Position numbers and translations under genes: made by a program. DNA of 64,000 nucleotides from Okeania sp. SIO1I7. GTDB taxonomy: Bacteria > Cyanobacteriota > Cyanobacteriia > Cyanobacteriales > Microcoleaceae. Under the pieces are notes generated by a model, which did no database searches, had not been told where the DNA came from, and saw nothing but the letters and a program-made list of their open reading frames with translations. Shown piece after piece: positions 7,006-31,648 of this stretch (positions are counted from its first letter, which is position 1; every line of letters starts with the position of its first letter). The stretch covers positions 186,001 to 250,000 of the forward strand of contig JAAHGF010000002.1 in NCBI GenBank assembly GCA_010672585.1, given 5' to 3'.

Positions 7006-9024
7006 TTATTTAAGAGGAGATCCTGGACAGTTATTTCTTAATTGAGTTAGTTTCTCCCTTACTTTCTCTATTTCATCATCATATAAATTAGAAGCGCCAG
7101 ATAACCAACCTTGTAATTGTGTTTGAATATCTGGAAAATTTTCATAATCTTCTGATATCTGACAGTATGCTTCTACAGCTTTGTCAAATTCAAAACTCTT
7201 GATGCGCTCTTGTGCTTGTTGGTATAAAGATTCATTTCTTGCTTGTTTTTTTTGCTCAGATAATTTCTGTTGTTGCTCAAATAATCTATTTTTATTTCTT
7301 TCACTTATAAAGGAATAGGCAAGACAATTTTTTCCCGATTGATTTTGCTCAATTACTGCTCCAATCACCTTTTCTTGATTTTCCACAGACAATTTTTGCT
7401 CTGAGAATATCCATTCTGATAATATATTTTCAACTTCTCTAAATTTTTCGTATTCTTCAGTAATTTCACAGAAAGATTCTATGGTTTTATCATATTCTCC
7501 AATATTTATTTGATTCCACCCATAATGGTAGAGCAATTCATTATATTTTCTGTCTAATTCATAATTATATGGACATTGTAAATCTAAACTTTCTTCTTTT
7601 CTAGACCATTCACTTCTGACTTTTTCGATGACTTGCGATCGCTCTTTTGCATCTCCTAAAGCTACATTTATTTCTTGTAAAAATCTAGAACATTCTGACC
7701 TAGAAGCTATAGAATTGCTTGAGTTACGAATCCGAGATAATGAGTATATTCCAGGAATAACTATAATTAAACTCACCACAAACAGAGATAAAAATTTTGC
7801 TATTTGATTAGGTCCTTGAGAATTATTGTCTCCCTTTTCTGTAGGCATTTTGTGGTTGTTATTTATTTTAGGTAGATTTTCATCTTTTTCAGGAATTTTC
7901 TCCATCTGCAGTCTTTCCTCATCAGATAAGGGATAGTTTTTTACCAGCCAATGTCGGACTAATTCAACTTTGATTTTATAAGCTATTGGATCTTCTTGTT
8001 CTTCTAAAAAGCCATATTTAACTAAACGTTTTCCTACAGACTGCCAATTTTTTATATTGGTCTTTAGTCGGTTTTCTCCCACTTCATTTTGGGCTACTGC
8101 TACTGCACGAAAAAACAACTTTTCATTGTCTTTCAAAGGTTCTAGAAAGCCTTTTAATACAGCCTCGCCTCCTTCTATTGCTTCATCTAAAATTAAGTCT
8201 ATATGATCGTGAAATACCTTTTTTATTCCTTTTTCCCTTGAATTATTAAAAATATAAAAGCATAGTAGTTGTGTTAGGGAAGGATGACCTGCTGATAGAT
8301 GCCAAATAGCATTAATTGCATCTGATTCATATTCTATATTTTTTTCTTTAGCTGGCTTAATAATCAGATTTTGTGTACTTTCCTTATCCAGCAAACCAAC
8401 TTCTATAGGCTTTCGATCTCCTTTTTTTAATTTTTCTAAGAATTTTTCCAGATAGATTATATCCGTTAACGGTCTACCAAAAACCAGAATACTAAATAGT
8501 TTTTCTTCCTGATTAACAACTTGTTCTAACCAATCAAATAAGTATTTTCCAGGAGTAGATATTGTTTCATCCTCTCCTAAAACATCAAACTCATCTAGGA
8601 GAAGAACTAGCTTTTTACCTGATAAATATTCATTGATAATTTTTGGCAAAAAAAGTTGAAAAAAGTTGTATTCATTATCGGCTAATTCTCTTACTTCTTT
8701 GGGAAGTCCACCAATAGTACCAGCAATATCATCAGCAAGATGATCTAATATTTCAGTTCTTGGCTTATGTTTGTAGCTTTGAAATGAAAAAGTGACAAAC
8801 TTAAAACCATTTTGCTCCTCAGTGAAAAATTGAGGTAGACAAGTTATCAATGAAGTTTTTCCAATACGTCGCTGGACGTGCAACAAAGTTATCTTGATAT
8901 TAGTTTTTAAATTATTTTCTATTTGCCTAAAAGTTTCTTCTCTGCCATATAGCTGCTCTATTTTATAAATTGGTTTGCCAAAAATATAAGGATTTAGCGT
9001 AAAATCATTATTACTTGTGTTCAT
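7006..9024 (-). CDS. STAND-like P-loop ATPase (type 2) with membrane segment and C-terminal helical repeats; locus A gene 3
   Basis: The N-terminal ~390 residues are a paralogue of the products of the next gene (9293-10552) and of the first part of the 24957-28868 gene. They share the NPYxxGxPI leader, LYGRE, DEFD Walker B and a GHPxxTQ motif (the GxP signature of STAND ATPases). The P-loop reads HVQRRIGKT: the first glycine of GxxxxGKT is V50 (codon GTC against GGC). A membrane segment (FLSLFVVSLIIVIPGIY, about residues 413-430) separates it from a charged region with two TPR-like repeats (YDKTIESFCEITEEYE and FDKAVEAYCQISEDYE). The annotated start is ATG at 9024; an upstream in-frame TTG at 9048 is less likely. 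A gap of 268 bp separates it from the next gene upstream, so it may have its own promoter. Function unknown; signalling or conflict switch is my inference. Confidence 0.75.
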   Translation of the reverse strand: MNTSNNDFTLNPYIFGKPIYKIEQLYGREETFRQIENNLKTNIKITLLHVQRRIGKTSLITCLPQFFTEEQNGFKFVTFSFQSYKHKPRTEILDHLADDIAGTIGGLPKEVRELADNEYNFFQLFLPKIINEYLSGKKLVLLLDEFDVLGEDETISTPGKYLFDWLEQVVNQEEKLFSILVFGRPLTDIIYLEKFLEKLKKGDRKPIEVGLLDKESTQNLIIKPAKEKNIEYESDAINAIWHLSAGHPSLTQLLCFYIFNNSREKGIKKVFHDHIDLILDEAIEGGEAVLKGFLEPLKDNEKLFFRAVAVAQNEVGENRLKTNIKNWQSVGKRLVKYGFLEEQEDPIAYKIKVELVRHWLVKNYPLSDEERLQMEKIPEKDENLPKINNNHKMPTEKGDNNSQGPNQIAKFLSLFVVSLIIVIPGIYSLSRIRNSSNSIASRSECSRFLQEINVALGDAKERSQVIEKVRSEWSRKEESLDLQCPYNYELDRKYNELLYHYGWNQINIGEYDKTIESFCEITEEYEKFREVENILSEWIFSEQKLSVENQEKVIGAVIEQNQSGKNCLAYSFISERNKNRLFEQQQKLSEQKKQARNESLYQQAQERIKSFEFDKAVEAYCQISEDYENFPDIQTQLQGWLSGASNLYDDEIEKVREKLTQLRNNCPGSPLK

Positions 9025-9292
9025 TGAAAATAAAAAATTTCTATACAATTTTAGAGACTATCAATCAAGTAAATATGAAATATAAAATTAATGCTACAGA
9101 TGATTTTTATTAACACAAAACACTTGATTACTATAGTCTTTTTTCAGAATAAAGAAAAGTTTTTCAAGGGCATACAAAGGGCATACATAAGTAGCAAACA
9201 TTTTAGTATCTTGTATAAAAAGGCCAATTTTATAAAATTTACAACCATCTAAACCACGATTATAACCTTATTAACTTAATATTTCTGGTTGT

Positions 9293-10552
9293 TTAATTAT
9301 TATGCGATCGCGTCCATCTTCTAAGGCCACTATGCCAAATTTGTTTGAGAAAAGACTTTTGAGGAAATAATTCATTTATTTTCTCTATTTCTGTTTCTAA
9401 TGAAAGTCTCTTTAATAACCAAAGTCGAAGTAATTCAATTTTTACTTTATAAATAGGAATTACGTTTTTTCCTAATTCTTGTTCTCCTATTTTTTGCAAA
9501 AACCCTAAATCCACTAAATGTTCTGCTGCTTTAGTTAATTCTTTTTTCATTTTTTGTGTAAGCTTTCCATGATGCCTTTCTAAGATCGCTAATGGATTAA
9601 CTATATTTGATTGAGAAGATTTTGTAGCTATTTTTTGAGCTTCAGCTACTGCGGATAGAATTAGTTTTTCTCTAGCAGATAAAATTCCTAGAGGAGATAC
9701 AAAAGCAGCCTCACCTTTTTCTAAAGATTCATCTATAATTCCTTCTACATCCTGATGAGTTACATTCCATCGGTCTAGATTTCTAGCCTGTTGAAATAAA
9801 TTAAAACATAGTAGTTGAGTATAGTAAGGATGTCCGCCTGCCAATTCCAAAATTGCCTCAATTGCTTCAGGTTCATATTCAAGAATTCCCTTAGCAATCT
9901 TAGTAATTAAATTTTCAGTATTAGACTTATTTAGTAATCCTAATTCTTGGTGAGGTACTTCTCCACCAAATAAATAACTAATATATTCTAGGCTATCTCC
10001 TCGTATTCCTAAAAACAGAATAATAAATAATTTTTCCTCTCTATTAATTAGTGAAGTTAAGAAGTTGATAAATGGGTTAATTTCCGTACAATTATCATCC
10101 CACAGAACATCAAATTCATCTAGAAGTAGAACTATATTTTTGCCTTCTAATCTATGGTAAATCTGTTTTAAAAAAATATCAAAAAATTCTTGTGGCTCTA
10201 CTTTTAAATCCTCCTGACTAGGAATAGCTATCGTGCTTCTCGATATTCCCAACCAATCAACTATATCCCTAGCAAAGTCATACAATATTTCATCCAAAGA
10301 ATAATGATGTTTCTCTTCTAGAGAAAGTGGAACAAAGATAAACCCATCTATACTAACAGACCGAGAAATATAATTCATATAGGAAGTCATACCAATACGT
10401 CTCTGTCCGTGTAGTACAATTACCTTTGCTCTAGAAGTAAGTTTCTCTCTAATAAAATTTACAATTGTTTCACGTCCATATAAGTACTCTGGAGCATAAA
10501 TTGGGCGACCTATAGTGTAAGGATTTTTAATCCAAGTGATTGATTTTTGCAT
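9293..10552 (-). CDS. STAND-like P-loop ATPase (type 2) with lysine-less Walker A; locus A gene 2
   Basis: A 419-residue ATPase paralogue: NPYTIGRPIYAPEYLYGRE leader, Walker B LLLDEFDVL, GHPYYTQ (STAND GxP motif) and a C-terminal winged-helix-like region ending in a basic tail. The Walker A reads HGQRRIGMT, so the invariant lysine is M55 (codon ATG where the paralogues have AAG or similar). ATP hydrolysis should be impaired; nucleotide binding or partnership with an active ATPase remains possible. It follows the type-1 ATPase gene by 33 bp, so the two are probably co-transcribed. It carries no recognisable effector domain. The same gene order with 32-bp spacing recurs at 24957-30193. Confidence 0.75.
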   Translation of the reverse strand: MQKSITWIKNPYTIGRPIYAPEYLYGRETIVNFIREKLTSRAKVIVLHGQRRIGMTSYMNYISRSVSIDGFIFVPLSLEEKHHYSLDEILYDFARDIVDWLGISRSTIAIPSQEDLKVEPQEFFDIFLKQIYHRLEGKNIVLLLDEFDVLWDDNCTEINPFINFLTSLINREEKLFIILFLGIRGDSLEYISYLFGGEVPHQELGLLNKSNTENLITKIAKGILEYEPEAIEAILELAGGHPYYTQLLCFNLFQQARNLDRWNVTHQDVEGIIDESLEKGEAAFVSPLGILSAREKLILSAVAEAQKIATKSSQSNIVNPLAILERHHGKLTQKMKKELTKAAEHLVDLGFLQKIGEQELGKNVIPIYKVKIELLRLWLLKRLSLETEIEKINELFPQKSFLKQIWHSGLRRWTRSHNN

Positions 10553-10585
10553 CTTTAATAACTATATTCGATTAGGTTTGCACTA

Positions 10586-11872
10586 CTATTTTTCGTCTGA
10601 TTTATTTAAAGGTATAAACCCCGACAATATTCTCATAATAGGTCGTCCAATTTTCAGGAAAAGTGATGCATTTTCTTTTACTTGCTCTAGCTGTTGAGCA
10701 GTAATCTTGAGTCCAAAATTGTCAAACAATATTTTACGCTGTTTAGGGTCTGAAATACTTTCAGCAAATTCTTGAACAACTAAATCTTGCATTAAAGAAG
10801 AATAAAAATTATATTTATCCTGCTCTGAAATTTCATAGATAACTCCTTGTTGCTGCAAAGCTTTCAGTAGATTTTTATTATTGCCAAATACTTTATCGAT
10901 ATCATCAACAAAATAACGCTCTCCCCTTAACTCACCTTGTGCATTCTTAATAACAATCAAAAGTAAAATTTTTTTCTCATTTTCATTCAAATCTCTCCAT
11001 ATATTCTTAAATATCTGTTCAGTTTGATTTTTAAATCTTGCTTTAAAAGTATTAATATCAATATCTCGCTCAGATTTAGAAAATATATGACCTGCGTGTT
11101 GAAGTAATATGGGATATCCGCCAGTCATTTCTAACACTGCTTCTTTCTGAATATTGTCAGGAATTGAAATTAAGAAATGCTCATCCGGGTTAAAAAAATA
11201 ATTATCAATATCCTTTTGACTAAAAGGTTTTAAGTCTATATATAGATAATGATTATACCAAGGAGAACCACCACGAGGAAGTTCCGGGCCTAACTCATCT
11301 AACTTTCGGAATGCAGCAACAACTGTTGAGAAATATTGACCTTCTGTACTATGAACTGCTAGGTTACGCAAACCACTTAAAAATGTCTGCATTTCTCTAG
11401 ATTTTTCATAGTCATACTCCTGTTGTGTACGAAGTATTCCATGATAGTCATCTAATAGTAATAATAAAAATTTATCTTTTTCCCCAATATGTCTAAGTAT
11501 CTGCCGTATGTCTCTTATTTCTATTATTTCTTCTTTTAATAGAGTATTAATTTTACCTTGTAAATCTGCATCACCTTCAGCTTCATTTTTTAACTCTTTT
11601 AAGACTTCTTGCCAAAAACTATTTGGCGTAAATAAACCCTCGCAGTTGTGATAAACAATCAAAGCTTCTGAATAATCTAATCCTTTCTCTTCCCAAAAAT
11701 TACGAGATTTTATATAGTTTAGTAAACATGACTTACCCATGCCATAACTACCATAAATAGCTGCATGACCACGATTATTAATTTGGTCAAAAATTGTGTA
11801 AAGTTCAGATGTTCTGCCGACAAACTTTTCTGGAGGAACTGGTGTATTAGGGAAGAATTGAGTTGGTGGCAT
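10586..11872 (-). CDS. STAND-like P-loop ATPase (type 1); locus A gene 1
   Basis: This 428-residue ATPase has an FFPNTPVPPEKFVGR leader and an intact Walker A GSYGMGKS (about residues 41-48). It also has a hydrophobic-LLLDDY Walker B, an RxxxELGPELPRGGSPWYNHY segment and a GGYPILLQ GxP motif, followed by a winged-helix-like C-terminus. It is a clear paralogue of the 28901-30193 product; many blocks are shared (IRQILR.IG, SGSPWYNHY, LRNLAV). It is first in the locus, with its ATG at 11872 and about 500 bp of repeat-containing DNA upstream. The partner gene follows after 33 bp. Pfam families such as ATPase_2 or AAA_16 are plausible; I cannot run the search. Confidence 0.75.
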   Translation of the reverse strand: MPPTQFFPNTPVPPEKFVGRTSELYTIFDQINNRGHAAIYGSYGMGKSCLLNYIKSRNFWEEKGLDYSEALIVYHNCEGLFTPNSFWQEVLKELKNEAEGDADLQGKINTLLKEEIIEIRDIRQILRHIGEKDKFLLLLLDDYHGILRTQQEYDYEKSREMQTFLSGLRNLAVHSTEGQYFSTVVAAFRKLDELGPELPRGGSPWYNHYLYIDLKPFSQKDIDNYFFNPDEHFLISIPDNIQKEAVLEMTGGYPILLQHAGHIFSKSERDIDINTFKARFKNQTEQIFKNIWRDLNENEKKILLLIVIKNAQGELRGERYFVDDIDKVFGNNKNLLKALQQQGVIYEISEQDKYNFYSSLMQDLVVQEFAESISDPKQRKILFDNFGLKITAQQLEQVKENASLFLKIGRPIMRILSGFIPLNKSDEK

Positions 11873-12372
11873 AATTTTAGATAAATTATTTGACTTTTAG
11901 CTTGACTATAATTATTAATTATATCAGAAGAGAATAGGGAACACTTAACCGGGAAAAAGCCAAAAAATCAAAGTATCTGAAAAAGGTGTGAAAAAGGTTT
12001 AATTTTGATGAGAGTTTTCAAGTTTAGGGCAGCAGACAGGAATCACATAATTTATTAGTATTACCCTTTTTTTTAATTGAATCAGGACTTACGCATGAGG
12101 TACGAAAAATTAGGATTTGAGATTACTTCCCTATGGGTCGCACGGTGAGGATATATTTTTTTGAATTTCTCCCACACTTCCCATCTCCCCACACACCCGG
12201 TGCTTCCTTTGCCATTACTATGCACCACCACCAGAGAGTGTTTGTAAAATGAATATTAAATATAGTCGAAAAATGCCTGTTTGCATAGCATGACCTAGGA
12301 AAAGTCAGTCTAGATCGGAGAATTACGTCAATGCCCTAAAAATGGCTGGAACCCTTTTTCCCTCTTTCTTTT
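11873..12372. repeat. Intergenic region with fragments of two dispersed elements
   Basis: No gene seen. It contains tcaggacttacgca (12082-12095), the same 14-mer that forms the termini of the element at 32081-32200. About 12270-12350 holds the reverse complement of sequence found inside the inverted-repeat element at 49317-49517 (agactgacttttcct, aattacgtcaa..). Both look like decayed mobile repeats. Confidence 0.5.
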
Positions 12373-13809
12373 TCAAGATTCCAAAGTAACATCTCCACCG
12401 ATAACAACATTCTGAATACGCAAACTCGGCCCGCCACAACCTACAGGTAAACCATCTTGCCCACCCTTACCACAACCACCAGACTCATCCCAAAAAAAAT
12501 CATCGCCGATCGCCTCAATATCACCCAAAGTCTCAAACACATTTCCAGAAAGAGTCACATCCCGCACAGGTTCAGCTAACTTACCATTTCTAATCATCCA
12601 AGCTTCCCCAGCACTAAAAGTAAACATTTCCCCATTAGTCATCCCACCCAACCAGTTGCGAGCATAAACTCCCTCCTTAATATCAGCAAATAAATCTGAA
12701 GCAGGAGTATTTCCTGGTGCTATCCAAGTATTAGTCATCCTGACTATAGGTGGATAATGATAATCAAGACAACGTGCATTACCCGTAGGTGCTTCTCCTA
12801 ATTTTCCCGCAGTCTCCCGTGAATGTAAACGTCCTACCAAAACACCATCTTGAATCAACTGGGTAGTAGTTGCTGGAGTACCTTCATCATCATATATATA
12901 ACTACCCCGATGTACTTCTTCTTCTACATTAGTATTTAGCAAAGGCGACACCTTAGCACCATCAAATATTTGTAAATTTTCTGGACCAAACCTCCGACCA
13001 ATTGTCATCACTTCCAATAAATCAGGATTTTCGTAGACCATATCTGCTTCCGAGAGATGACCAAAAGCTTCGTGAACAAATAGACCTGTGAGAATTGGGT
13101 CAATAACTACAGTGTAAGTATTACCTTGAACAATTGGCAAAGCTAGAGAATTCACAGCTCTTTCCGCAGCACTACGAACATAATTATCTAAATTAGTTAA
13201 ATCTTCATAAGCTTTGCGGGAACCAGTAGTTTCCCTACCTGTTTGTACGGTTTCCCCATCTCTAGCAGTGGCAGCAAAGCGTATTTCCATATCTACCCAA
13301 GATTGTTCTAGCATAGTGCCTTCGGAAGTAGCGAGAATTACTTTTTGGGTACTGTCCCCATAACGCACAGATACAGTGGTAATTCGACGATCAACACTCC
13401 GCAATATTTGGCCATAATGTTCGCATAGTTCTTTTTTGTTGGCCAAAGATATATGACGTGGATCTGTCCCTATGAGATGAACCGCATGAGTTGCTTGAAT
13501 TATGGGGATGGGAGCTAGGATTGTTTCTTCTTCTCCAATCAATTTAGCCACAGCGATCGCCTCTTCTATTCTGTCTTTCAAGGTTGAGAGTTGATTAAAG
13601 CTGGCAAAACCCCAACCTCCTCGGTAACAAGCTCGAACTTGACCACCTATGGAAAGACCTTCGCTTAGGGTTTCTATTTTGTTGCCTCGCAACAGAATAT
13701 CTGTTCCTTGAGATTCTTCTAGGCGAATGGCCAAATAATCTACTTGAGAACTATAATTAGCGAGCAAGTCGGATAATATATTTTTGGCATCAGTCAATAA
13801 TACAGGCAT
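12373..13809 (-). CDS. tldD: Metalloprotease TldD
   Basis: TldD, normally with TldE/PmbA, is a zinc protease that removes leader peptides and degrades unstructured peptides. The zinc motif HEAFGHLSEAD (HExxxH) lies near residue 250. The C-terminal block, rich in glycine and cysteine (GCGKGGQDGLPVGCGGP), is typical. I prefer the ATG at 13809 (MPVLLTDAKN); a TTG at 13830 in the same frame would add seven residues. The protein is about 478 aa, the family norm. Its TldE partner is not in the neighbouring genes. Confidence 0.92.
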   Translation of the reverse strand: MPVLLTDAKNILSDLLANYSSQVDYLAIRLEESQGTDILLRGNKIETLSEGLSIGGQVRACYRGGWGFASFNQLSTLKDRIEEAIAVAKLIGEEETILAPIPIIQATHAVHLIGTDPRHISLANKKELCEHYGQILRSVDRRITTVSVRYGDSTQKVILATSEGTMLEQSWVDMEIRFAATARDGETVQTGRETTGSRKAYEDLTNLDNYVRSAAERAVNSLALPIVQGNTYTVVIDPILTGLFVHEAFGHLSEADMVYENPDLLEVMTIGRRFGPENLQIFDGAKVSPLLNTNVEEEVHRGSYIYDDEGTPATTTQLIQDGVLVGRLHSRETAGKLGEAPTGNARCLDYHYPPIVRMTNTWIAPGNTPASDLFADIKEGVYARNWLGGMTNGEMFTFSAGEAWMIRNGKLAEPVRDVTLSGNVFETLGDIEAIGDDFFWDESGGCGKGGQDGLPVGCGGPSLRIQNVVIGGDVTLES

Positions 13810-14543
13810 TAGAGGTTTTGATAAGTTCAAAAAGATTGTACAGGTTGTTAGAAGTCAAAAGTCAAAAATAAAAAATCAAAAGTCATCTATGACTTACTTT
13901 CAGCATTTAGTATTGTCCGCACCCTAATTGCGTAGTGCTATATGATATCTATTGCTAAATATAAGGACTAAAAACTTTGACACTAACTATAGTAATTTCA
14001 AATAATTATTTCACATCATCAGAAGCGAAATTATTTGTGAAATCTTTCAACTGAATTGGTATTAGTTAAAGTTTTCTATTAATTCAACAATCAAATTATT
14101 GACTTTGATCATCATAAGCGGAGATTGCGGTTATTTAGTTCGGTTCTACCAACATCAGTAGTGGATAAATACCGATACCCTAAGTATTAATGGTTTACTT
14201 ATTTTTTGGACAACTAATCGGGGAATGCTTCAATATAACTAAGGAAGAGGAGCAATTTTCCCATTAATTAAATATTATCCAATTTTTTATTCTTGGGTAT
14301 ATAGCAGAAGGAAGAAGGAAGAAGGAAGAAGGCAAAATCTTACGTTGTCTGAGTTTTAAGCTTTTGATCTGTCAAACACCTTTCCTTCGAGTGGTATAAA
14401 ACTTAGTACACAAAATTTAAGATATAAGACAAAAAAAAGGTTGACAGTTTTGCATTTTATTTTACTATTTTTTTTAGCAAAGCTAGTTAAAGTTTCTGTG
14501 AAAGTTTAAATTTATCAATTAATAGATTAAGGTTATTTATTTT
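13810..14543. repeat. Long intergenic region with a TATAGC-type element
   Basis: No gene seen in about 730 bp. From 14300 to 14398 lies an element that starts tatagcagaaggaag and ends ccttcgagtggtata, with gaaggaa heptamers inside the left end. It resembles the one at 33572-33676 (shared ttttaagcttttgatctg). The rest is AT-rich and may carry the promoter of the histidine kinase gene. Confidence 0.55.
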
Positions 14544-16691: not shown

Positions 16692-17270
16692 TTAATTATG
16701 TTCAAAATTATTCCCTTCAAGAGAAATTTCTTCTAGGTCAATATAATTAACTTCCCCTGCTTTAACTTCTTTAGGCACATTAGTTACCTCATATTTAGTA
16801 CCTTTAGGAACCAATACTTCTCTCTCACTATACATTGCAGAAAAATCACTAATAGACACTCCCGAATGATTGTGCTTTACCCGAATCACTACTTGGTAAC
16901 AATGACCAGAATAAGTCTCAGCAATTTTTGGATCGGAAGTAAAACTAGTGACCGAATCTAAAGTATAATCTCCATGGGGTTTTAATTGTTTAATAAAAGA
17001 TTTTATTGATTTTTCACTAAAAGACATACCCCGATAAATATCACCATCATAAGTGGGCATTTTGTGCATGAAATTGTTAAGAATTTTAACATTCCCTTCG
17101 TTTTTTCCTTCTTTATCTGCCCGTCTAATTTTACGAAAATCTGCAGTAGTAAATCTTTCAAGTGCGGATAATGATTCTGCTGCTTCAATAGAATTCATTC
17201 CACTTAATTTAGCAACCTGAGCAACGAGTTTGTTGTTTTCGCAAAGTACAACATTATTCATAAAGTTCAT
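16692..17270 (-). CDS. Putative mono-ADP-ribosyltransferase (R-S-E class), solitary
   Basis: ADP-ribosyltransferases of this class transfer ADP-ribose from NAD to a protein, usually on arginine. The three signature elements appear in order: R80 (DIYRGMSF), the S-x-T-S motif (S109-F-T-S112) and E149-R-E151 (SEREVLVPKGTKY, an ExE of arginine-specific enzymes). The N-terminal ~70 residues are helical with no signal peptide. Length of 192 aa fits a bare catalytic domain. The ATG at 17270 is used here; ATG at 17261 is equally possible. No antitoxin, secretion gene or phage structural gene is adjacent. It could be a toxin, a phage-derived enzyme or a regulator; the target is unknown. Confidence 0.75.
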   Translation of the reverse strand: MNFMNNVVLCENNKLVAQVAKLSGMNSIEAAESLSALERFTTADFRKIRRADKEGKNEGNVKILNNFMHKMPTYDGDIYRGMSFSEKSIKSFIKQLKPHGDYTLDSVTSFTSDPKIAETYSGHCYQVVIRVKHNHSGVSISDFSAMYSEREVLVPKGTKYEVTNVPKEVKAGEVNYIDLEEISLEGNNFEHN

Positions 17271-17640
17271 CTCAACTCGATACTTTTTATTATCTCCTAA
17301 AATTACTCAAAAAGTAACCCATTCATTCAGGTAATTTTTGCCTCACCCAGATGGGTGAATTTGAAGCTTAAAATTGATCCTGACCTAATATAGCCAGCAT
17401 TTTCTCAACAATTCTTAAAGATAAACCAATAAGTATAAATAACTAATAAGCCCTAATAAAATACTATAAATTCTAATTTAATTATTAATAAATAATCTAT
17501 CAATACTTTCCTGATCAACTTGTAAAAGTACAAACTTTAGCAATAAGTACCTGGACTTAAATCTTAGCAAGACCTTCCTAAAATATGAAGATAAATTACG
17601 GTCTTTTCTAGTGTAGGTTATGACCATGTTATATCATGTC
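17271..17640. other. AT-rich intergenic region upstream of the ADP-ribosyltransferase
   Basis: I see no gene, repeat or clear promoter motif. It ends in tatatcatgtccgctcgg, where the first unit of array A begins. Confidence 0.4.
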
Positions 17641-22737: not shown

Positions 22738-22971
22738 CAGTATGAAATGATTTTTAAAATTTCTCCATAAATATTATTGCTGTATCTAAGTTTGAGGCTA
22801 TTGCTATTCACGAATGATTTAGGATTGCTATATAAGGTATGTGTTAAAAGTGCCTTTTGATTAACTTGATTCCATAAATAAAAAAAAATCAAACTTCTCG
22901 GATATTTTGTTTAAAATTATCAAATATAATTTGCAGTCTAACTAATAAAAATATAGAATAAAAGTAAGAAT

Positions 22972-24762
22972 ATGCTATATATTACCAAGAAAGATTTTAT
23001 CAAATCCGGCTGGCAGGATGTGGTTAATGCTAGTGAAAAAAAAGAATGTTTTGCCTACATTAAAGGCTTTTGTCAAAAAGCACAGGAAGCAGAAGAAGTA
23101 GGAAATATTAGGGAACAAACTATATTTAAAATATTAGCAAAAGTCACTCTCGTTGATATTAGGAGAACTCACCGACAATTAAACGAAGAAGACTTTGCTA
23201 AAATCAACTTGACAGACGAACATCTAAACTTTCTGGTTGAAATTGCACCTGAAATATCAGACTCCGAACTTCAGGCAAGAGTTGCAAATATTCTTTGGAG
23301 CAAACAACGTAACTATTCGATGGCTAAACTTGCAATTAATGCTTACATAAAATCTGCTATAGAATTAGAAGATTTTACTGCCATAAAATTAGGAATTCCT
23401 ACAAAATGGATCGGTTGCTATGATCGAATAGAAAGAGCATTTCAACTAGCAAAAAAAATCAACTATCAAGTTGAAAAAGTAGTTGAACATATAGAAAAAG
23501 TTCTCGAACGCTACCAAGGAGAAGACCCTCTTTGGTTATCAGCAAAACTAATGGAACTTTTGCAAAAAAACAAACTTGGCTGCCCCAAAAAATATGCTGC
23601 TCTAGCTAAAAAAGCTGCCCTTCTATCAGAATCATCCTATGATTGGGATAGAGCAAGAAATTATTGGGAAATCAAAGCAAAATGGCATCAAATAGAAAAG
23701 GATAGAGAAAACGAACGTGCGGCTTTAATGCTTGCTGCTGACACCTATTTTAAACAGGTAAAAAAAGCCCTAAAAAACAATCAAATTTTTTATTTAGCAG
23801 CATCAAAGAATCTTCAGAAAGCTATTGAAGCCTTTAGAAATATTCCTGGCACAAAAGAAGAGACTGTAGTGGCAAAAGCAAGAGCGGAAGAAGCTCATAA
23901 ACTTTTACTTCAATATCAAGAAAAATCTAAGAAAAAATGGATTACTAACTATTCCGATACTGTTGACTTTACAGAAGCAGTAGAAAAAGCTAGAGCAATT
24001 GTTAGAGGTGAAAAATTAGAGGATGCTCTTTTTTCCTTAGCTTTATCAACAAATTTTACAGAAGTCTCTCAACTTAAAAAACAAATAGAGCAGATAGTTT
24101 ATGATTTTCCTGTGTTTCCTCTGATGAAAAAAGAGAAAATAAATCAGAATGGTAAAGTTGTAGATAGACAAAAAGTGGAAACTACACAATTTGAAGAACT
24201 CAAAGCCGCAATGGAGTTTGAAATGTATCATACAAGTGCATCCTACCAAAGTATTCAAGCCCAAGTATTGATAGATCCAGCCAGAGAACAAATAAATTTA
24301 GAACATTCTGTAGAAATTAAAGACTTTTTTCCCATTGTTTCAAATAACCCTTTTGTACCACCCAAGAGAAAATATTTGTTTGCAAAAGGATTACTTGCTG
24401 GTTTAACTGGAGATTTCTACACATCTACCCACATCCTCATTCCCCAAATTGAAAATGCCATCCGTTATCTACTTTGGAAACAAGGTGCATTACCTTCGAG
24501 CTATGAGGATAAAGGAATTCAAAATGAATATAACTTGAACAAAATTCTTTACTTCCCTGAGATGGCTGATATTTTCGACGAAGACACAATTTTTGACCTT
24601 AGAGGTTTACTTGTTGAAAATTCAGGCTCTAATTTGAGAAACCGCATGGTTCATGGTTTGCTAGATGATGATGATTTTTTAAGTCCTCTGATGTCTTACC
24701 TATGGTGGGTGACATTGAGACTATGTTGTTTACCGAACGTTATATATCAACAGAAAGTTTAA
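22972..24762 (+). CDS. DUF4209-type protein with RNxxxHG (HEPN-like) C-terminal motif
   Basis: The C-terminus contains LRNRMVHGLLDDDDF (about residues 562-576), which matches the RNxxxHG motif that defines DUF4209. The spacing R-x4-H also fits the catalytic motif of HEPN ribonucleases. The first ~430 residues are helical with TPR-like character (many KAAL, AKLAI and AAxxY segments) and no membrane segment. No nucleotidyltransferase (MNT) partner or second toxin gene is adjacent. It converges on the STAND-WD40 gene, whose stop lies 194 bp away. Ribonuclease activity and any role in defence are inference. Start is ATG 22972. Confidence 0.72.
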   Translation: MLYITKKDFIKSGWQDVVNASEKKECFAYIKGFCQKAQEAEEVGNIREQTIFKILAKVTLVDIRRTHRQLNEEDFAKINLTDEHLNFLVEIAPEISDSELQARVANILWSKQRNYSMAKLAINAYIKSAIELEDFTAIKLGIPTKWIGCYDRIERAFQLAKKINYQVEKVVEHIEKVLERYQGEDPLWLSAKLMELLQKNKLGCPKKYAALAKKAALLSESSYDWDRARNYWEIKAKWHQIEKDRENERAALMLAADTYFKQVKKALKNNQIFYLAASKNLQKAIEAFRNIPGTKEETVVAKARAEEAHKLLLQYQEKSKKKWITNYSDTVDFTEAVEKARAIVRGEKLEDALFSLALSTNFTEVSQLKKQIEQIVYDFPVFPLMKKEKINQNGKVVDRQKVETTQFEELKAAMEFEMYHTSASYQSIQAQVLIDPAREQINLEHSVEIKDFFPIVSNNPFVPPKRKYLFAKGLLAGLTGDFYTSTHILIPQIENAIRYLLWKQGALPSSYEDKGIQNEYNLNKILYFPEMADIFDEDTIFDLRGLLVENSGSNLRNRMVHGLLDDDDFLSPLMSYLWWVTLRLCCLPNVIYQQKV

Positions 24763-24956
24763 AATAGCAGTCAGCAGTCAGCAGTCAGCGGTCAGCTCTC
24801 AAAGCGTATTTGGTATGAGTATTAAGTGGAGTGGGTATCCTACCTATCCGAAAATATAAAGAACGGGCAAGATTCCCATTCTACTTCCACAAAACGATTA
24901 AAATCATCCCGCATTTATGCAACGCCTTTTTTTTCAAAATTATTATCCATAAATTA
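24763..24956. repeat. Convergent intergenic region with agcagtc heptamers
   Basis: Four agcagtc-type heptamers lie at 24766-24796, between the convergent DUF4209 and STAND-WD40 genes. No gene or clear terminator seen. Confidence 0.5.
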
Positions 24957-27900
24957 TCAATTATCAATGATATCGTTACAAAGAGTTTTATCGCTCTCAT
25001 TAACTTCGGGGTTATTTTCTAGATAGTCTCGCACCCAGTTGCAACCACGGACTAGCAGTTCATCTAAGTCTTGATTTGCTGTAGATGTAGGTGGCTGCTG
25101 CTTCTGCAAGTTCCATAAACGGATAGTACCATCTTCTCCACCAGTTGCGAGTAAGTTGCCATCAGGACTAAAACTAATAGTGTTGATCGCTCCTTCAGGT
25201 ACTTGGAATTCCTCTAACTGCTGACGGCTGTTCAAATCCCACAAGCGTGCGGTGCCGTCTGCTCCAGCAGTAGCCAATAATGTGCCATCAGGGCTAAAAT
25301 GAACGCTATTAACTGCACCTTTGGGAACATTAAATACTTGCTCCTGCACACCCTGTAAATTCCACAAGTAGACAGTACCCTTTTTTCTTCCAATAGCTAG
25401 TAATCTACCATCAGGGCTAAAACTAATGCTAGTTACTAAACCTTGACTTCCTATAAATGAGCGTAATAGTTTACCTTCCAAATTCCATAATTTAACCATG
25501 CCATTTTCTCCTGCACTAGCCAGTAATTTACCATCGGGACTAAAAGCAACGCTAGTGACCGAACCTTGATTTCTTCCGAATGAGTATAACAGTTTGCCTT
25601 CCAAATTCCATAAGTTAACCGTGCCATTTTCTCCTGCACTAGCTAAGAGGTTGCCATCGGGACTAAAAGTAATGCTAGTGGCCGAACCTTGATTTCCTCT
25701 GAATGAGTATAACAGTTTGCCTTCCCAAGTCCGTAAGTCAACCGTGCCATTTGTTCCTGCACTAGCTAAGAGACTGCCATAGCGAGTAACAGTAAGGCTA
25801 GTGATCGAACCTTGATTTCCTATTAATGAGCGTAACAGTTTGCCTTCCAAATTCCATAAGTTAACCGTGCCATTTTCTCCTACACTAACCAGCAATTTAC
25901 CATCGGGGCTAAAATTGACGCTGGTCACTGAACCTTGATTTCCTTGGAAGCGGTTTTGTTCTTTGATTTCATCAACTACTTTTTGTAAGGTTTCGATCAC
26001 CTCATTGTTTAACTCAGTATTATTTCTAGGTAATAGCTTGAGTTCTTTCCCTGAGCGTAAACTGGCTATCAACCCCTCTAACTGACTATTTGAGGCAAAA
26101 AGAGCCTCTCCACTAGCACTGCGGGCACGAATTTCTGCAATCTGTGACCGTTGAATTTGAAACCAGATTGTTATTGGTACAGTTATAGATACCAAGAGAG
26201 TAAGCAAAAAAATTAAAATAGATGGTATAGTAGATTTTTTTCTTTGTTTTTCTAATTTTTGGCGCTTTCTCCACTCAATGCTTAGTTCGATAAATTCTTG
26301 CTCCAATAGATTCAGTTTTTCTGGACGTTCCTGCAGCAAATCTTCTGCCTCTGCAAGCAGCACACCTCGTAACAATGCCTCTTTCTCTCGTCCCGTCTCT
26401 TGCCATAGACGTACCGCTATTCGTAGTCGCTCTTGCCATATTCTAAATTCTCGGTCAGTTTCCATCCACTGTCTAAGTTGATCCCAGTTGCGAATCAGAG
26501 CCTCATGGATAACCTCGACAGTTTCCTGCTGTTGTCCAGCGATAAAAGATCTATTGATCGCTACTAACCGATCATCAGCTAACTTTTTGACTAACTTCCA
26601 ATCACTTTCCTGGAATTCTTCTTTGGTTGCTTGTCGTCGTGTGTCCTCAGTTCCTTCACCAGGACTCACTAACTGCAAAAAAATGTGATGAACTACTTCT
26701 TTTTCCTGTTTGCTAAGTTGATAATACTTTTCATCAGCATAGCGAGTTAACACCCCAGAGATTTCCCCTATCTCTTCATAAGCATTGTGAGTTAATTCGT
26801 TCTGGGTAAGGTTTTTCCATAGTTCCATGAGGGTAAATTCTAATAGGGGTAGGGGTAAATTTCCCGGTTTTTGTTGAACATCATTAAAAATTCTCTGCAC
26901 CAGTCCTTGTTCAAAGCTGACTCCTAAGTTTTGAGCTGGTTTTTCAATAACTTCTCTTAGTTCCTCTAACTTCATTGGACGTAGTAATAAATAGCCTTTT
27001 TGCAAGATATCCGCTAAGGGTGGATAGGAAAGAGCATTTCCTAAAAAATCGGTTCGTAGGGTGGCGACTAACACCGTTGATAAAGTAGACTTTTCCTCAG
27101 ACTGAAAGGGGTTTAAGAGGGTATCAAGAAATTTCTGATGGGTTGGTTCATCGCTACAAAGGGTATAGAGTTCTTCAAACTGGTCAGCGATCACAAGTAC
27201 CTGATAATTGGGGTAATTTTTTTTTATTTGGGAAAAAACATCTTTAAGCAAAACGGAACCGCTAACAAAGGATTGAGCTAATTGCCTAGCTTGCATTATT
27301 TGTTCAGTATCACCTAATTCTGTTCCAAAAAGTGGAATTAGTGCTTGTGCAAAAGCAAGGAAAGGGTCGGAACCAGGACGGAAGTAAGTGAACAGCCAGT
27401 TACCTTCTTGTTGCAGTTTAGGCACCAGTCCCGCTAAAACCACCGAAGATTTTCCGCTTCCTGACTCACCCAGCAAAGCTATAAAATTACGGGTATTAGT
27501 TGCAGCAAATAGTCTTTTTACAAATACCTCGCGCCCAAAGAAAAACTCAGCTTCATTCGGACCGAAATGATGGAAACCCTGATAAGGACAAGGGAGATTT
27601 TCATCAACAGATGTATCCGCAGACTCAACAGGTTCTAACTTGAAATCTTCACGCAAATCGAAGTAGTTGACAATTCTTGGGATGTGCGATTCCCATAATT
27701 CCCGTATTTCTTGCTTTAGAGGATGTCGCTTTAATAACCAACGGCGGACTAATTCGATTTTCACTGTGTATGCGGAAGCTTTTTTGGGAGGTTCTGAAAC
27801 TTTCAGCAAATTCAAGAAACCCCATTCCTTTAATCTTTCTCCTGCCTGAATCAACGATTTTGTCTGGATAACTCCATACTTTCTCAGCACCGTCAATGGG

Positions 27901-28868
27901 TCTTCCACAACAAACTCTGCTTTTCCAGTAGCTATTTGTTGAGCTTCTGCTACCGCTGAGAATACAACTCGTTCCGGGATAGGAAGTCCATCATAAAACC
28001 ATGCTAATCCAGCTTCAGCATTCTCGATCGCTTTATCGACAATACTTTCTACATTTCCACGAGTCACAATCGATCGCCCTTCTTCTCTGGCTTTGAAAAA
28101 GAGTGCAAAACATATTACTTGGGTAAAATAAGGATGCCCTGCTGATAGCTCCAGAATCGCCTGAATAGCATCAGGTTGATATTCTAAAACACCCTTAGCT
28201 GGTTCAATAATCAATCTCTTGGCATTTTTCTCTCGCAACAAACCAATTCTCAGATTAGGTGCTTGATGGAACAAACCCAGTAAATTCGGCATATCATCAA
28301 GCCGTCGTCCTACAACTGGAATGATAAAAAGCTGTTCTTGCTCATCAACAAGAGATTTTAAATAGGGAAACAAGTGAGTGCTGGCTGTATCTTGAGAGTG
28401 TTCGCCTAAAACATCAAATTCATCTAATAAAAGAACTAAATTTTTGCCATCTATTACTTCAAAAACTTGCCTTAAGAAAACTTCAGAAAAAAGCTCTTGT
28501 TCTTTCTGTAAATCCTTTTTAGATAGAATCCTAATCCCATCAACTTGCAGCTCAAATTCATCCTCCAAATATTCCAGAATTTCTGAGGCAATTTCATACA
28601 GAACATCACTAACTGATTTCCTGCTTTTGCCTTCCAGAGACAGGAAAACAAAGAAAAACTGTTCTAGCTGGACAAAGTTATGAACTTGCAACAATACCGA
28701 GGACTTACCAATACGCCGCTGACCATGGAGCAAAATCACTTTGGCATTCTGCTTCAAATTATCCTCAATAAACCGAAAGAGGTCTTCTCGTCCGAAAAAA
28801 GATTCCGGTTTGTGAATCGGAACACCTATAATATAAGGATTATCTTGTTCAGTAATTGAAGCAGTCAT
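24957..28868 (-). CDS. Tandem-NTPase WD40 protein: type-2 STAND ATPase + nSTAND1 + membrane segment + seven-bladed propeller; locus B gene 2
   Basis: A 1303-residue signalling protein. Residues 1-400: a type-2 ATPase with intact Walker A (G49-QRRIGKS56), DEFD (149-152) and GHPYFTQ. Residues ~425-880: an nSTAND1 module (CPYQGFHHFGPNEAEFFFGRE, Walker A GESGSGKSS at 468-476, Walker B VLVIADQFEEL). Around 890-915 a single membrane segment. From about 970 seven WD40-type repeats of ~41 residues (FSPDGxLLASAGxxGTVxLWNL) form a complete propeller. A tail, LDELLVRGCNWVRDYL, common in cyanobacterial WD40 proteins, ends it. Blades 1-4 are nearly identical. The type-1 ATPase gene lies 32 bp upstream. 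Membrane topology and ligand are unknown. Confidence 0.85.
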   Translation of the reverse strand: MTASITEQDNPYIIGVPIHKPESFFGREDLFRFIEDNLKQNAKVILLHGQRRIGKSSVLLQVHNFVQLEQFFFVFLSLEGKSRKSVSDVLYEIASEILEYLEDEFELQVDGIRILSKKDLQKEQELFSEVFLRQVFEVIDGKNLVLLLDEFDVLGEHSQDTASTHLFPYLKSLVDEQEQLFIIPVVGRRLDDMPNLLGLFHQAPNLRIGLLREKNAKRLIIEPAKGVLEYQPDAIQAILELSAGHPYFTQVICFALFFKAREEGRSIVTRGNVESIVDKAIENAEAGLAWFYDGLPIPERVVFSAVAEAQQIATGKAEFVVEDPLTVLRKYGVIQTKSLIQAGERLKEWGFLNLLKVSEPPKKASAYTVKIELVRRWLLKRHPLKQEIRELWESHIPRIVNYFDLREDFKLEPVESADTSVDENLPCPYQGFHHFGPNEAEFFFGREVFVKRLFAATNTRNFIALLGESGSGKSSVVLAGLVPKLQQEGNWLFTYFRPGSDPFLAFAQALIPLFGTELGDTEQIMQARQLAQSFVSGSVLLKDVFSQIKKNYPNYQVLVIADQFEELYTLCSDEPTHQKFLDTLLNPFQSEEKSTLSTVLVATLRTDFLGNALSYPPLADILQKGYLLLRPMKLEELREVIEKPAQNLGVSFEQGLVQRIFNDVQQKPGNLPLPLLEFTLMELWKNLTQNELTHNAYEEIGEISGVLTRYADEKYYQLSKQEKEVVHHIFLQLVSPGEGTEDTRRQATKEEFQESDWKLVKKLADDRLVAINRSFIAGQQQETVEVIHEALIRNWDQLRQWMETDREFRIWQERLRIAVRLWQETGREKEALLRGVLLAEAEDLLQERPEKLNLLEQEFIELSIEWRKRQKLEKQRKKSTIPSILIFLLTLLVSITVPITIWFQIQRSQIAEIRARSASGEALFASNSQLEGLIASLRSGKELKLLPRNNTELNNEVIETLQKVVDEIKEQNRFQGNQGSVTSVNFSPDGKLLVSVGENGTVNLWNLEGKLLRSLIGNQGSITSLTVTRYGSLLASAGTNGTVDLRTWEGKLLYSFRGNQGSATSITFSPDGNLLASAGENGTVNLWNLEGKLLYSFGRNQGSVTSVAFSPDGKLLASAGENGMVKLWNLEGKLLRSFIGSQGLVTSISFSPDGRLLAIGRKKGTVYLWNLQGVQEQVFNVPKGAVNSVHFSPDGTLLATAGADGTARLWDLNSRQQLEEFQVPEGAINTISFSPDGNLLATGGEDGTIRLWNLQKQQPPTSTANQDLDELLVRGCNWVRDYLENNPEVNESDKTLCNDIIDN

Positions 28869-28900
28869 AACATCACTTCCTTCCTACTATCATTTGATTC

Positions 28901-30193
28901 TCAGGTGGGATTGCCTAAAAACCTGCTTATTATATTAACAAATGACTCGACTGCCTTTCGATACTTCCATACCTGTTTGAAGACTTGAGTTACCCCCTCT
29001 ACCTGCTCGCGACTCATTAACCTGAGAAATACTTTCTCTCGCTTCTTGAGTTCTGTTTCATCACTGTTTTCAATTTCCCTGAGTACCCACCATTCCATCA
29101 TAGAAGAAGTAAATTCATAAACAGTTTTCCAGTCCTCTTGCGTTTTCTTAATTATCCCCCGTTCCTCTAAATCTATTAACTCCCTTTCTTTCTGACTAAA
29201 AATATTGTCAATACCTCTCAAAGCAAAACTTTTTTTACCCAGATTACCCTCTAAACGAGACAACGCTATTAGAATTAACAGGATTTGCTCCTCATCTGTG
29301 GATAATTGCCAAATGTTATCGAAGATTTGTTCTGTTCGACCTTGAAAGTCTTTAATAAAAGTCTCAAGATCGGGTATTTCTCCATCCTGAAGCCTTTCAT
29401 ATAGCAGATATCCTGCATTTTGAAGTAGTTGTGGATGCCCATCAGTAATTTTCAAAATACCTTCTTGCAAACTCTGTTTAATTCTAATGAAACGAGGAGA
29501 AGTAGAGGTGAAAAATTCCTCCAAAACTTCAGCCTTTGAGAAAGGTTTTATTGGTTGGAAGATATAGTGATTGTACCAAGGTGAGCCGCTTAGAGGAAGT
29601 GTTGGTCCGAGTTCGTTCAATCGCCTGAAAGTAGTTACAATAGTCCGCAGATGTCGCCCTAGTTTTGGATCTACTGCCAGATTACGAAACTCGCTGAGGA
29701 ATGTCAGCATCTCAATTTCTGTATATTCGGTATTCGTTTTGAGAGCAGAATCATAATCATCAATTAGTAGCAGCAGGAATTTATCTTTATCCTGCTTGCC
29801 AATTTTCCTAAGTATCTGACGGATATCCGTTTTCTCAATAGTATCTCCTTCCAAGACCTCATCAATAACAGCTTTTAATTCATCGTTATCCTCAACTTCT
29901 TCTTTCAACAAAATTAAGACTTCCTGCCAAAAAGCATAGGGTGTGAAAGGATTGATATTAGTACAGTTGAGATAAACAATCAAGGACTTTGAGTAGTCTT
30001 GTCCTTGCTCTTGCCAAATTTCAGAGTAAGTTAGAAGATAGAGAAGTGATGACTTCCCCATACCAGGGCTACCATAAAAAGCACCGTGTAAATTCTTAGT
30101 AATTAGATCGAAAGCAAATCGAAGTTCAGATTTTCGCCCGATGAAATATTCTGGAGGTACAGGGCCAGCAGGAAAGAAAGGATTGTTTGGCAT
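28901..30193 (-). CDS. STAND-like P-loop ATPase (type 1); locus B gene 1
   Basis: A 430-residue paralogue of the 10586-11872 product. It has the leader FFPAGPVPPEYFIGR, Walker A GSPGMGKSS, Walker B LLLLIDDYD and the shared GSPWYNHY block. It also has a DGHPQLLQ GxP motif and a winged-helix-like C-terminus with no extra domain. It starts at ATG 30193 and ends 32 bp before the tandem-NTPase WD40 gene, so co-transcription is likely. A GTPase gene lies 144 bp upstream in the same direction. Its repeated association with a type-2 ATPase suggests the two proteins form one complex; this is inference. Confidence 0.78.
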   Translation of the reverse strand: MPNNPFFPAGPVPPEYFIGRKSELRFAFDLITKNLHGAFYGSPGMGKSSLLYLLTYSEIWQEQGQDYSKSLIVYLNCTNINPFTPYAFWQEVLILLKEEVEDNDELKAVIDEVLEGDTIEKTDIRQILRKIGKQDKDKFLLLLIDDYDSALKTNTEYTEIEMLTFLSEFRNLAVDPKLGRHLRTIVTTFRRLNELGPTLPLSGSPWYNHYIFQPIKPFSKAEVLEEFFTSTSPRFIRIKQSLQEGILKITDGHPQLLQNAGYLLYERLQDGEIPDLETFIKDFQGRTEQIFDNIWQLSTDEEQILLILIALSRLEGNLGKKSFALRGIDNIFSQKERELIDLEERGIIKKTQEDWKTVYEFTSSMMEWWVLREIENSDETELKKREKVFLRLMSREQVEGVTQVFKQVWKYRKAVESFVNIISRFLGNPT

Positions 30194-30337
30194 GATATCT
30201 ACAGTTCTTGGTCTTTTAGGACATACTAAATTATATCAAGAAGGAAGAAGAAAGAAGGAAAGACAGAAGGAAAGTATTTGAGAATTAATCAGTAAACCCT
30301 AATTATTAATTATTAATTATTAATTATTAATTATTAA
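30194..30337. repeat. Intergenic spacer with aattatt and gaagga-type repeats
   Basis: Tandem aattatt heptamers at about 30299-30340 and gaagaaagaagg runs (30240-30275) separate the GTPase stop from the type-1 ATPase start. Any transcript joining them must cross these. Confidence 0.6.
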
Positions 30338-31648
30338 TTAATTCTTAAACCTCTCTTTCGCTGACTCAAACGCCTCCTGCATCACACCTTGAATTTTTTC
30401 TGGGTCTGGCTTTTTCCCTCCCATCAAATCTCCGAAATAAACACAAGCACTTTCACCTAATGCCCAAGTATATGCAGCAGCCCAAGAAGCTGCGATCGCG
30501 CTCCCGAACCCAGGCACAAATTTAATCAACTCCCTCCCCACTGCTTGAGCAACAAAACCTCCTCCAATAACACTAACAACTCCTCCTGCTTGAGATGGGG
30601 ATATTGTTTGCCCATACAAATTTCCTAATAAACCTACCATGGACACTTGCAAAGCTGTTAATACTGGCATTGTGGCAAAAGGTAGAGGTACTGCTGCTGT
30701 GGTAGCTACCATAATAGTAAATGATAAAATATAACGTCGCCCCACATCTCGATAAATATTGCCCAGTTGTTTGCTTGCTTGTTCGTCTAATAATTGATAA
30801 ATTGTTCGTGCTTCTGCTTCTGGAAGTAATTCTGCTAAACTATCTCGAAAGGCTTCTAAACCATAAAATACAGGATTGTAGTCATCCTCTTCTAGGGTAA
30901 AATCTATCAGTACAGAGCGATCGCTCAACTTCCCAAAGTCTTCCTGAATAGCAACAAAAGCACGGTTTATTTCTTCATATTCTGGAGGATATTCGGGATG
31001 GTCGTCAGTAGGGTTAGGATAAACTTCATGGAGACAAGTTACTGCTAAAAGACAGGGAATATTTGGATATTTTTGTCGCAACTGTTCTGCTATCTGTCGT
31101 AATGTATCGGTAGCAAAATCATTGATTTTTACGGTCAAAATCAAAATTCTAGCGCGGTTACTTTCTTGCTGTAACTCTCCCAGGAGTTCGTCAATAATAA
31201 CTGGTGTTTCCTGTTTGACATCTCCCAACCCCACAGTATCAGTGAAAATCAATAAGGGCAAATCGTCCGAGGGATAAGCATAACGTTCGGTATGTTGGGT
31301 ATGAGGGCGAAATCCTTGACCGACTATTTCTGGGGAAACTCCTGTTAAAGCTCGTACAATGGAACTTTTACCTGCTTGGGGTTTACCTATTAATAGTGCT
31401 TCGGTGGTGGGAAGTTCTGCGCGCACTTTTGTTAATATTTCTGCTACTTTGGCTTCATCAACGCTAAACCATTCTACTAATGTTTGTGCTGCTCGGTCTA
31501 CGGGTAATAGTTTCATTACACGGTTGCTGGTATCATTCCAAGCTTCAGCAATACGATTTTTCCAAGAGTCTTTTTTTGTATCTTCAGTCGGTTGATGAAA
31601 CTGTTCCGAATCAGTTGTTACTTGGTTGGTGTCATTTTCCTCAGTCAT
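30338..31648 (-). CDS. Era-like GTPase with DUF697-type hydrophobic C-terminus
   Basis: A GTP-binding protein. G1 is GKPQAGKSS, and G3 is DTVGLGD within LLIFTDTVGLGD. G4 appears degenerate (AVTCLHE rather than NKxD). The C-terminal ~130 residues are rich in small and hydrophobic residues (FATMPVLTALQ, GGVVSVIGGGFVAQAVGRELIKFVPGFGSAIAA), as in DUF697 proteins that associate with membranes. I use ATG 31648 (MTEENDTNQV). The longer in-frame start at 31837 would add 63 residues translated from a dispersed repeat (cccgcgctctcccgcagggg), which is unlikely to be coding. Position upstream of STAND locus B in the same orientation makes a functional link possible. Confidence 0.8.
   Translation of the reverse strand: MTEENDTNQVTTDSEQFHQPTEDTKKDSWKNRIAEAWNDTSNRVMKLLPVDRAAQTLVEWFSVDEAKVAEILTKVRAELPTTEALLIGKPQAGKSSIVRALTGVSPEIVGQGFRPHTQHTERYAYPSDDLPLLIFTDTVGLGDVKQETPVIIDELLGELQQESNRARILILTVKINDFATDTLRQIAEQLRQKYPNIPCLLAVTCLHEVYPNPTDDHPEYPPEYEEINRAFVAIQEDFGKLSDRSVLIDFTLEEDDYNPVFYGLEAFRDSLAELLPEAEARTIYQLLDEQASKQLGNIYRDVGRRYILSFTIMVATTAAVPLPFATMPVLTALQVSMVGLLGNLYGQTISPSQAGGVVSVIGGGFVAQAVGRELIKFVPGFGSAIAASWAAAYTWALGESACVYFGDLMGGKKPDPEKIQGVMQEAFESAKERFKN

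Follow-up and report, generated by a model that had tools for sequence, protein, structure and literature searches.

The stretch of DNA analysed here (the window) consists of 64,000 nucleotides of contig JAAHGF010000002.1 of Okeania sp. SIO1I7 and contains two loci, on the same strand, in which a gene for a type-1 STAND-like ATPase (family T1) is followed by a gene for a type-2 STAND-like ATPase (family T2). A first-pass annotation, made from the sequence alone, had described this arrangement and proposed that the pair forms one complex with an exchanged C-terminal output. We confirmed the open reading frames (ORFs) of both loci, with T1-T2 gaps of 33 bp in locus 1 (10553-10585) and 32 bp in locus 2 (28869-28900). 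Their genes are listed below with their scores against the Pfam models and against our hidden Markov models (HMMs) of the two families.

10586..11872, minus strand: T1 of locus 1, STAND-like ATPase of 428 amino acids; AAA_22 31.4 bits (cut-off 27); T1 HMM 699 bits
9293..10552, minus strand: T2 of locus 1, 419 amino acids, bare; ATPase_2 29.9 bits (cut-off 33.2); T2 HMM 635 bits
7006..9048, minus strand: second T2 of locus 1, whose P-loop (HVQRRIGKTS) is intact; T2 HMM 527 bits
28901..30193, minus strand: T1 of locus 2, STAND-like ATPase of 430 amino acids; AAA_22 27.8 bits (cut-off 27); T1 HMM 752 bits
24957..28868, minus strand: T2 of locus 2, with the T2 ATPase at about 1-400, nSTAND1 at 428-829, a transmembrane-like (TM-like) segment and seven WD40 stretches; T2 HMM 654 bits

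The T1 and T2 ORFs of the window matched the AAA_22, AAA_16, ATPase_2 and STAND models of Pfam, mostly with scores close to the curated cut-offs, and Pfam found no extra domain in the T1 of locus 1. The tails behind the T2 ATPases are of three kinds: absent in 9293-10552, a TM segment with a short repeat-like region in 7006-9048, and nSTAND1 (401 bits in Pfam) with WD40 in 24957-28868. The tail of 7006-9048 is about 245 residues long with one TM-like segment early in it; Pfam gave nothing above cut-off for it, and its tail cluster recurs in five other loci. The PADLOC match of 24957-28868 to HEAT-ARM_XIII (87 bits) falls in the WD40 part. The trio of locus 1 adjoins an ammonium transporter in the window and in five other Okeania or Trichodesmium loci. 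The T1 of locus 2 has an 88% identical copy in locus L003, where the T2 part is 92% identical and its ORF runs past the contig end.

The host genome carries T1 at five places (E 0.001 or better), three of them beyond the window, and T2 at eleven places, the best five of which lie beside T1, are fused to it or belong to a T1 operon. One of the further copies (L002) has an intact T1 followed by a T2 that carries TPR and a TM-like segment and matches Peripla_BP_6; a 3191-residue ORF (L002 5907-15482, minus strand) is convergent with this operon on contig 56. In another (L001), a single ORF combines T2, a TPR-like part and T1, and a stop-broken T1 lies upstream.

Conservation of the pair

Scanning genome contigs, including those from outside Cyanobacteria, with four T1 sequences gave at least 80 confirmed stretches in at least 75 loci, and all the loci listed belong to Cyanobacteriota. 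We counted adjacency for the 69 full-length T1, standalone or N-terminal, with at least 800 bp of sequence downstream, leaving out 18 further T1 pieces that were incomplete or at a contig end. For 67 of the 69, a T2 gene lay downstream on the same strand, no more than 1 kb away, at a median domain-to-domain distance of 84 bp (range 3-572 bp). These 67 adjacencies are not independent events because many of the loci are closely related, the 75 loci representing 23 named genera and 6 orders. The order and strand to which the first-pass annotation had drawn attention nevertheless hold far beyond the Okeania genome. Fusions of the two domains were found in 8 of the 206 ORFs with either domain, seven of them T2-T1 and one T2-T2-T1; the latter was counted as a T2-T1 fusion because one T2 had been split into two matches. 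One example of such a natural fusion is L029 11706-14540.

The phylum was surveyed in 386 cyanobacterial genomes, with up to four candidates scored per genome. T1 was present at E 1e-10 or better in 22 of them; the core family (best score at least 441 bits) accounted for 15, and the remaining seven had short remnants or a distant T1-like form. At E 1e-40 or better T2 was also found in 15 genomes, and these were identical to the 15 core-T1 genomes. This threshold was picked after the T1 search and is backed by a score gap below the core T2 rows: relaxing it to 1e-10 gave 52 genomes, with scores dropping from at least 333 bits in the core to at most 135 bits, and the one core row at 154 bits was cut by a contig end. 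At 31 of the 32 core T2 places, T1 lay within 4 kb on the same contig or was fused to T2, and the remaining place (L134) was preceded by an ORF with a binding-protein (amino-acid-binding) tail. The earlier annotation had asked for such a search of cyanobacterial genomes for adjacent pairs, and with both families in the same 15 genomes they are not neighbours by chance. The T1-T2 pairing is established.

The pairwise distances among T1 proteins followed those among the neighbouring T2 proteins, with r 0.866 for 59 pairs (permuted maximum 0.20), 0.765 for the 14 pairs of the window's family (permuted maximum 0.54) and 0.870 for the other 45 pairs (permuted maximum 0.24), values that include species history and are inflated by shared descent. 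The T1 and T2 profiles aligned over 324 columns with a probability of 98.8 in hhalign, and by this measure the two families are distant homologues of each other.

The surroundings of the pair were compared across the collected loci. Upstream of the pair and on its strand, a trpS-like gene occurs in 17 loci and an MTHFR-like gene also in 17, in Nostocales and Leptolyngbyales; the former was assigned by eye and the latter by Pfam in L054 only. Some positions of the pair are old, as this neighbourhood indicates. We looked for a conserved extra gene beside the pair and rejected the candidates, since the recurrent neighbours reflected housekeeping-type synteny or small groups, with no shared effector gene among them. 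T1 had no match in 72,556 plasmid and 50,697 phage records, and viral contigs contained no relative of it.

In the window, an MMR_HSR1 GTPase with DUF697 (30338-31837, minus strand) directly precedes the T1 of locus 2. In L003, from Okeania, the same place holds a 94% identical copy, and we rejected this gene as a conserved extra partner because it was common only to L003 and to the host's own copy of the locus (L104). A gene with DUF7380 and DUF4209 in Pfam (22972-24762, plus strand), which PADLOC lists as the candidate defence gene PDC-S39 (739.5 bits), is convergent with the locus-2 T2; it adjoins no other T1-T2 locus in the collected set. Three other ORFs of the window, all on the minus strand, were assigned by eye: 16692-17270 (192 residues) resembles an ADP-ribosyltransferase and has a 94% identical ORF in L067, 20489-20797 resembles the N-terminal part of an ABC transporter ATPase and is probably a truncated gene, and 45568-46983 (471 residues) resembles a CHAT-type protease. 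A remnant lies in L077 (10001-11250, plus strand), where the first 52 residues of T1 are directly followed by an ORF with a binding-protein tail; its layout suggests that the central part of the operon is missing.

STAND motifs and exchanged tails

The motifs by which STAND nucleoside triphosphatases were reportedly defined by Leipe in 2004 were sought in alignments of 76 T1 and 106 T2 sequences. In the window, the T1 P-loop announced as GxxGMGKS reads GSYGMGKS and GSPGMGKS, accompanied by LLLDDYH or LLIDDYD at Walker B and by GGYP or DGHP, and the T2 proteins have DEFD and GHP. The Walker A lysine is kept in 73 of the 76 T1 and 95 of the 106 T2. At Walker B, T1 has D followed by D or E in 68 of 76, and the commonest form in T2 is LLLDEFD (75 of 106); two acidic residues and a GxP motif had been noted in both families. 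The proline of GxP is present throughout (P254 in 76/76 T1, P246 in 106/106 T2), preceded in T2 by H245 in 98%. The GR ahead of the P-loop is at positions 19-20 in T1 (96-97%) and at 26-27 in T2 (97-100%). With Walker A, Walker B, GxP and GR in place, both families appear to be STAND ATPases. A conserved arginine, a candidate for an arginine finger of the kind looked for in both partners of nSTAND2 pairs, was found at Arg170 in 74/76 T1 and Arg188 in 90/106 T2.

The T2 P-loop is less uniform than had been described. The annotated form HGQRRIGKS applies to 24957-28868 and fails for the bare T2 9293-10552, whose P-loop is HGQRRIGMTS, with methionine for the Walker A lysine, and which retains DEFD and GHP. 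The lysine is lost in 11 of the 106 T2, and Walker B DEF is retained in 9 of those 11. Six of the 11 come from the transporter-linked locus (window, L062, L064, L065, L067 and L069), where they make up all six copies of the bare locus-1 T2; the other five are second-position genes (L031, L036, L050, L060 and L073). Three other bare T2 keep the lysine (L040, L062 14272 and L065 7315).

The commonest T2 tail is of the binding-protein type. A profile built from six Pfam-confirmed cases found it in 56 of 114 T2 ORFs, in 33 of 71 loci, and Peripla_BP_6 exceeded its cut-off in 7 of the 18 proteins scanned (L002, L017, L037, L038, L044, L028 and, at 37.9 bits, L025). In L017 the binding-type tail spans residues 640-1004 or so. 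The nearest solved relatives of this domain are binding proteins of amino-acid and branched-chain amino-acid ABC transporters (best 4gnr, 5e-13). A TM-like segment lies between T2 and the binding domain in 56/56 at a mean hydropathy above 1.6, and in 43/56 at 1.9 or more. Lysine and arginine around this segment together averaged 3.4 before and 2.1 after it, being more numerous before it in 35 tails and equal in 14. Other T2 tails consist of TPR only (L005 and L023), GAF with TPR (L004), SH3 (L052) or a further P-loop domain near KAP and AAA_16 (L009). The idea that the C-terminal part is exchanged therefore held, but its label of output did not fit the commonest, sensor-like tail; for the exchanged part as a whole, an input role looks likelier than an output role.

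T1 varied much less. Scans with the Pfam models covered 35 of the 76 T1 and 35 T2, and in those T1 they gave no effector family and no recognisable sensor domain. Two T1 extensions were considered as effectors and rejected. The 240-residue extension in L045 matched nothing in Pfam at E 0.01, and the one in L054 is an in-frame piece of MTHFR; this ORF (L054 9278-11293, plus strand), with T1 in frame behind a partial MTHFR (118 bits), comes from a metagenome-assembled genome and may be a product of assembly or decay.

The wider gene A-gene B format

The distant T2 relatives scoring at most 135 bits, here called gene B, are mostly ORFs of 700-1000 residues. We examined 38 loci, comprising 37 of the 59 rows of the relaxed search and one locus of the host genome on contig 46 (L154), where the T2 relative is weaker. 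In 36 of the 38, a short STAND-like ATPase (gene A) either precedes gene B by at most 3 kb on the same strand or is fused ahead of it, and all of these match the gene A profile with at least 54 bits; gene A was found downstream of gene B in none of the 38. Because 11 of the first 18 loci had served to train the profile, the second batch, with gene A in 19 of 20, is an independent test. The exceptions are L147, which lies 957 bp from a contig start, and L161, whose gene B is truncated. The host locus (L154 5190-8610, minus strand) has a DUF4351-like gene between its gene A and gene B (19 bits, below cut-off).

Domain scans of ten gene A proteins gave Trypsin_2 in L152, EAD4 in L155 and a sigma-70-region-4-like helix-turn-helix in L151, and ATPase models only in the others. 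A single chain in L149 (2708-6082, plus strand) contains two TIR_2 stretches, a gene A-type ATPase and a T2-type ATPase. The distances of gene A and gene B were correlated with r 0.94 over 34 pairs. In a tree of 101 ATPase domains, T2 and gene B formed one clade (100/99), and this clade persisted when seven other STAND rows were added (98/94). The A side (T1, T1-like and gene A) stood opposite it in the first tree and was broken by the outgroup rows in the second; enforcing its monophyly was not rejected (p-AU 0.379). The tree program gave a long-branch warning for both trees. On these trees the B side has one origin. We make this claim for that side alone, since the best tree with the added rows does not unite the A side.

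Readings of the pair

STAND proteins have mostly been discussed as single chains that sense and act inside the cell. The best reading of the present data, and one that we think is rather probable, is that T1 and T2 act jointly in a heteromeric switch that depends on nucleotides and has its sensor tail on T2; that they form one physical complex is something we infer. T1 would be the near-constant partner. T2 would be the receptor half, its N-terminal ATPase pairing with T1 and its exchangeable C-terminal part reading the signal. The commonest tail would cross the inner membrane once and put a leucine-binding-protein-like domain in the periplasm, so that the cytoplasmic STAND pair could read a small molecule from outside the cell, probably an amino acid or something related. 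In operons with two T2 genes, one T2 often retains Walker B and GHP and lacks the Walker A lysine, and it would serve as a regulatory, non-hydrolysing subunit. Several observations weigh against this reading. The window's own T2 genes are without the amino-acid-binding tail; among the 56 binding-type tails, 13 have only a weak TM-like segment and 7 have fewer lysines and arginines before it than after it; two full-length T1 stand alone (L026 and L045); and the shared descent that inflates the distance correlations has been mentioned above. The T2 tail of L022 is a protein kinase (104.6 bits), which is more like an output and argues against reading all T2 tails as inputs.

The last point would suit a reversed arrangement, in which T1 is the sensor and the T2 tail the exchanged output, as would the nSTAND1-WD40 protein found as a tail in the window itself. 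We consider this arrangement unlikely, because a ligand-binding domain that follows a TM-like segment is the commonest tail, the GAF, TPR and SH3 tails are typical inputs or scaffolds, and T1 lacks a recognisable sensor domain. Somewhat unlikely, though deserving more weight, is an NLR-like system of immunity or programmed death in which T2 senses an invader and T1 or a recruited protein kills the cell. The STAND-type motifs of both proteins, the TIR (L149), trypsin-like (L152) and EAD4 (L155) domains on the first-gene side of the distant paired relatives, and the PDC-S39 gene next to locus 2 would be expected from it. However, the scanned T1 carry no effector family, no effector gene is common to the recurrent neighbours, PDC-S39 accompanies no other locus, and the trpS-like and MTHFR-like neighbourhood is stable across orders, unlike that of a mobile defence gene. 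The defence or death role suggested in the first-pass annotation has no direct evidence: no PADLOC match to the window's T1 and T2 ATPases exceeded 17 bits, and T1 was missing from the plasmid and phage records and viral contigs. It is distinctly improbable that T1 and T2 are two independent ATPases, co-transcribed without forming a complex. The two solitary T1 among 69 would be in keeping with this, but the fusions in 8 ORFs, the identical distribution in 15 of 386 genomes and the repetition of the gene order in the wider family all speak against it.

Least probable of all, in our opinion, is that the pair belongs to the published nSTAND2 counter-invader system. The parts of that paper considered here (Kaur and colleagues 2021, PMC8195603) describe a mobile two-gene operon with STAND modules in both products, in which one partner has eroded and carries a fused GT4 or HEPN. 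The likeness to T1-T2 lies in the two-gene operon, the STAND nature of both products, the variable fused domains, the proposed hetero-multimer and a partner that is possibly catalytically dead. The nSTAND2 model (PF20702) also matched 12 of 35 T2 at E 0.01 or better, and its cut-off was exceeded by the T2 of L052 and L009. In contrast, it matched only 1 of 35 T1, and five other models fitted more of the 35 T2 (AAA_16 35, AAA_22 34, ATPase_2 29, AAA_35 27 and nSTAND1 26). T1 and T2 are both mostly intact, as their Walker A lysines indicate, their variable tails are mainly sensor-like, and no GT4 or HEPN was reported in the T2 proteins scanned whole (3, 10 and 6 in three scans). By these matches, T1 and T2 do not both appear to belong to the nSTAND2 family, and neither seems to be a generally eroded partner. 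The first-pass annotation had known of no description of such a paired format; because the nSTAND2 operon was already published, the two-gene STAND format as such is not new, although T1 and T2 do not fit nSTAND2 by the tests made. Our literature search found no description of T1-T2, most subscription papers and supplementary files lying outside it.

Other known systems share single features with the pair. T2 resembles ATPase_2-type proteins of the MNS clade in its 29 ATPase_2 matches among 35 and in its best solved relatives, 2fna and 2qen, but these matches are weak. The Npun2340/2341 family is named in this clade in the part of PMC8195603 covered, and the adjacent numbers are suggestive only. 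The sections covered of PMC7159879 deal with EADs and a two-gene, membrane-associated EACC1 system, and contain no T1-T2-like pair. EACC1 likewise has two genes and an exchangeable C-terminal part, with instances of a TM segment and a periplasmic-binding-protein domain; its first gene, however, encodes a one-TM EACC1 domain and its second a caspase or cyclase, whereas T1 and T2 are both ATPases. No caspase model matched the T1 or T2 proteins scanned. An N-terminal effector of the Avs type was absent from the scanned T1 and was seen only in distant paired relatives, and T2 begins at its ATPase. In plants, sensor-helper NLR pairs are adjacent, unequal genes, one of which has integrated domains, and the P-loop is sometimes dispensable. 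Their likeness to T1-T2 is by analogy only, what is shared being the STAND-type ATPases.

We tentatively suggest, with somewhat less than even confidence, that T1-T2 is one branch of an old, cyanobacteria-wide paired class, independent of nSTAND2, in which gene A, a STAND ATPase at times with a TIR, trypsin or EAD N-terminal part, is coupled to gene B with a membrane or sensor part. The amino-acid-binding receptor would be the commonest form of the T1-T2 branch, and the class would parallel the helper and sensor NLRs. The division of labour becomes directly testable through the repeated loss of the Walker A lysine from one of two T2 subunits. If our reading is true, a fixed pair that splits the roles, with one half often reading the periplasm, would offer a simple system for studying how one signal is shared between two unequal STAND ATPases, and would allow one to test whether the immune-type switches of cyanobacteria also serve nutrient or cell-to-cell sensing.

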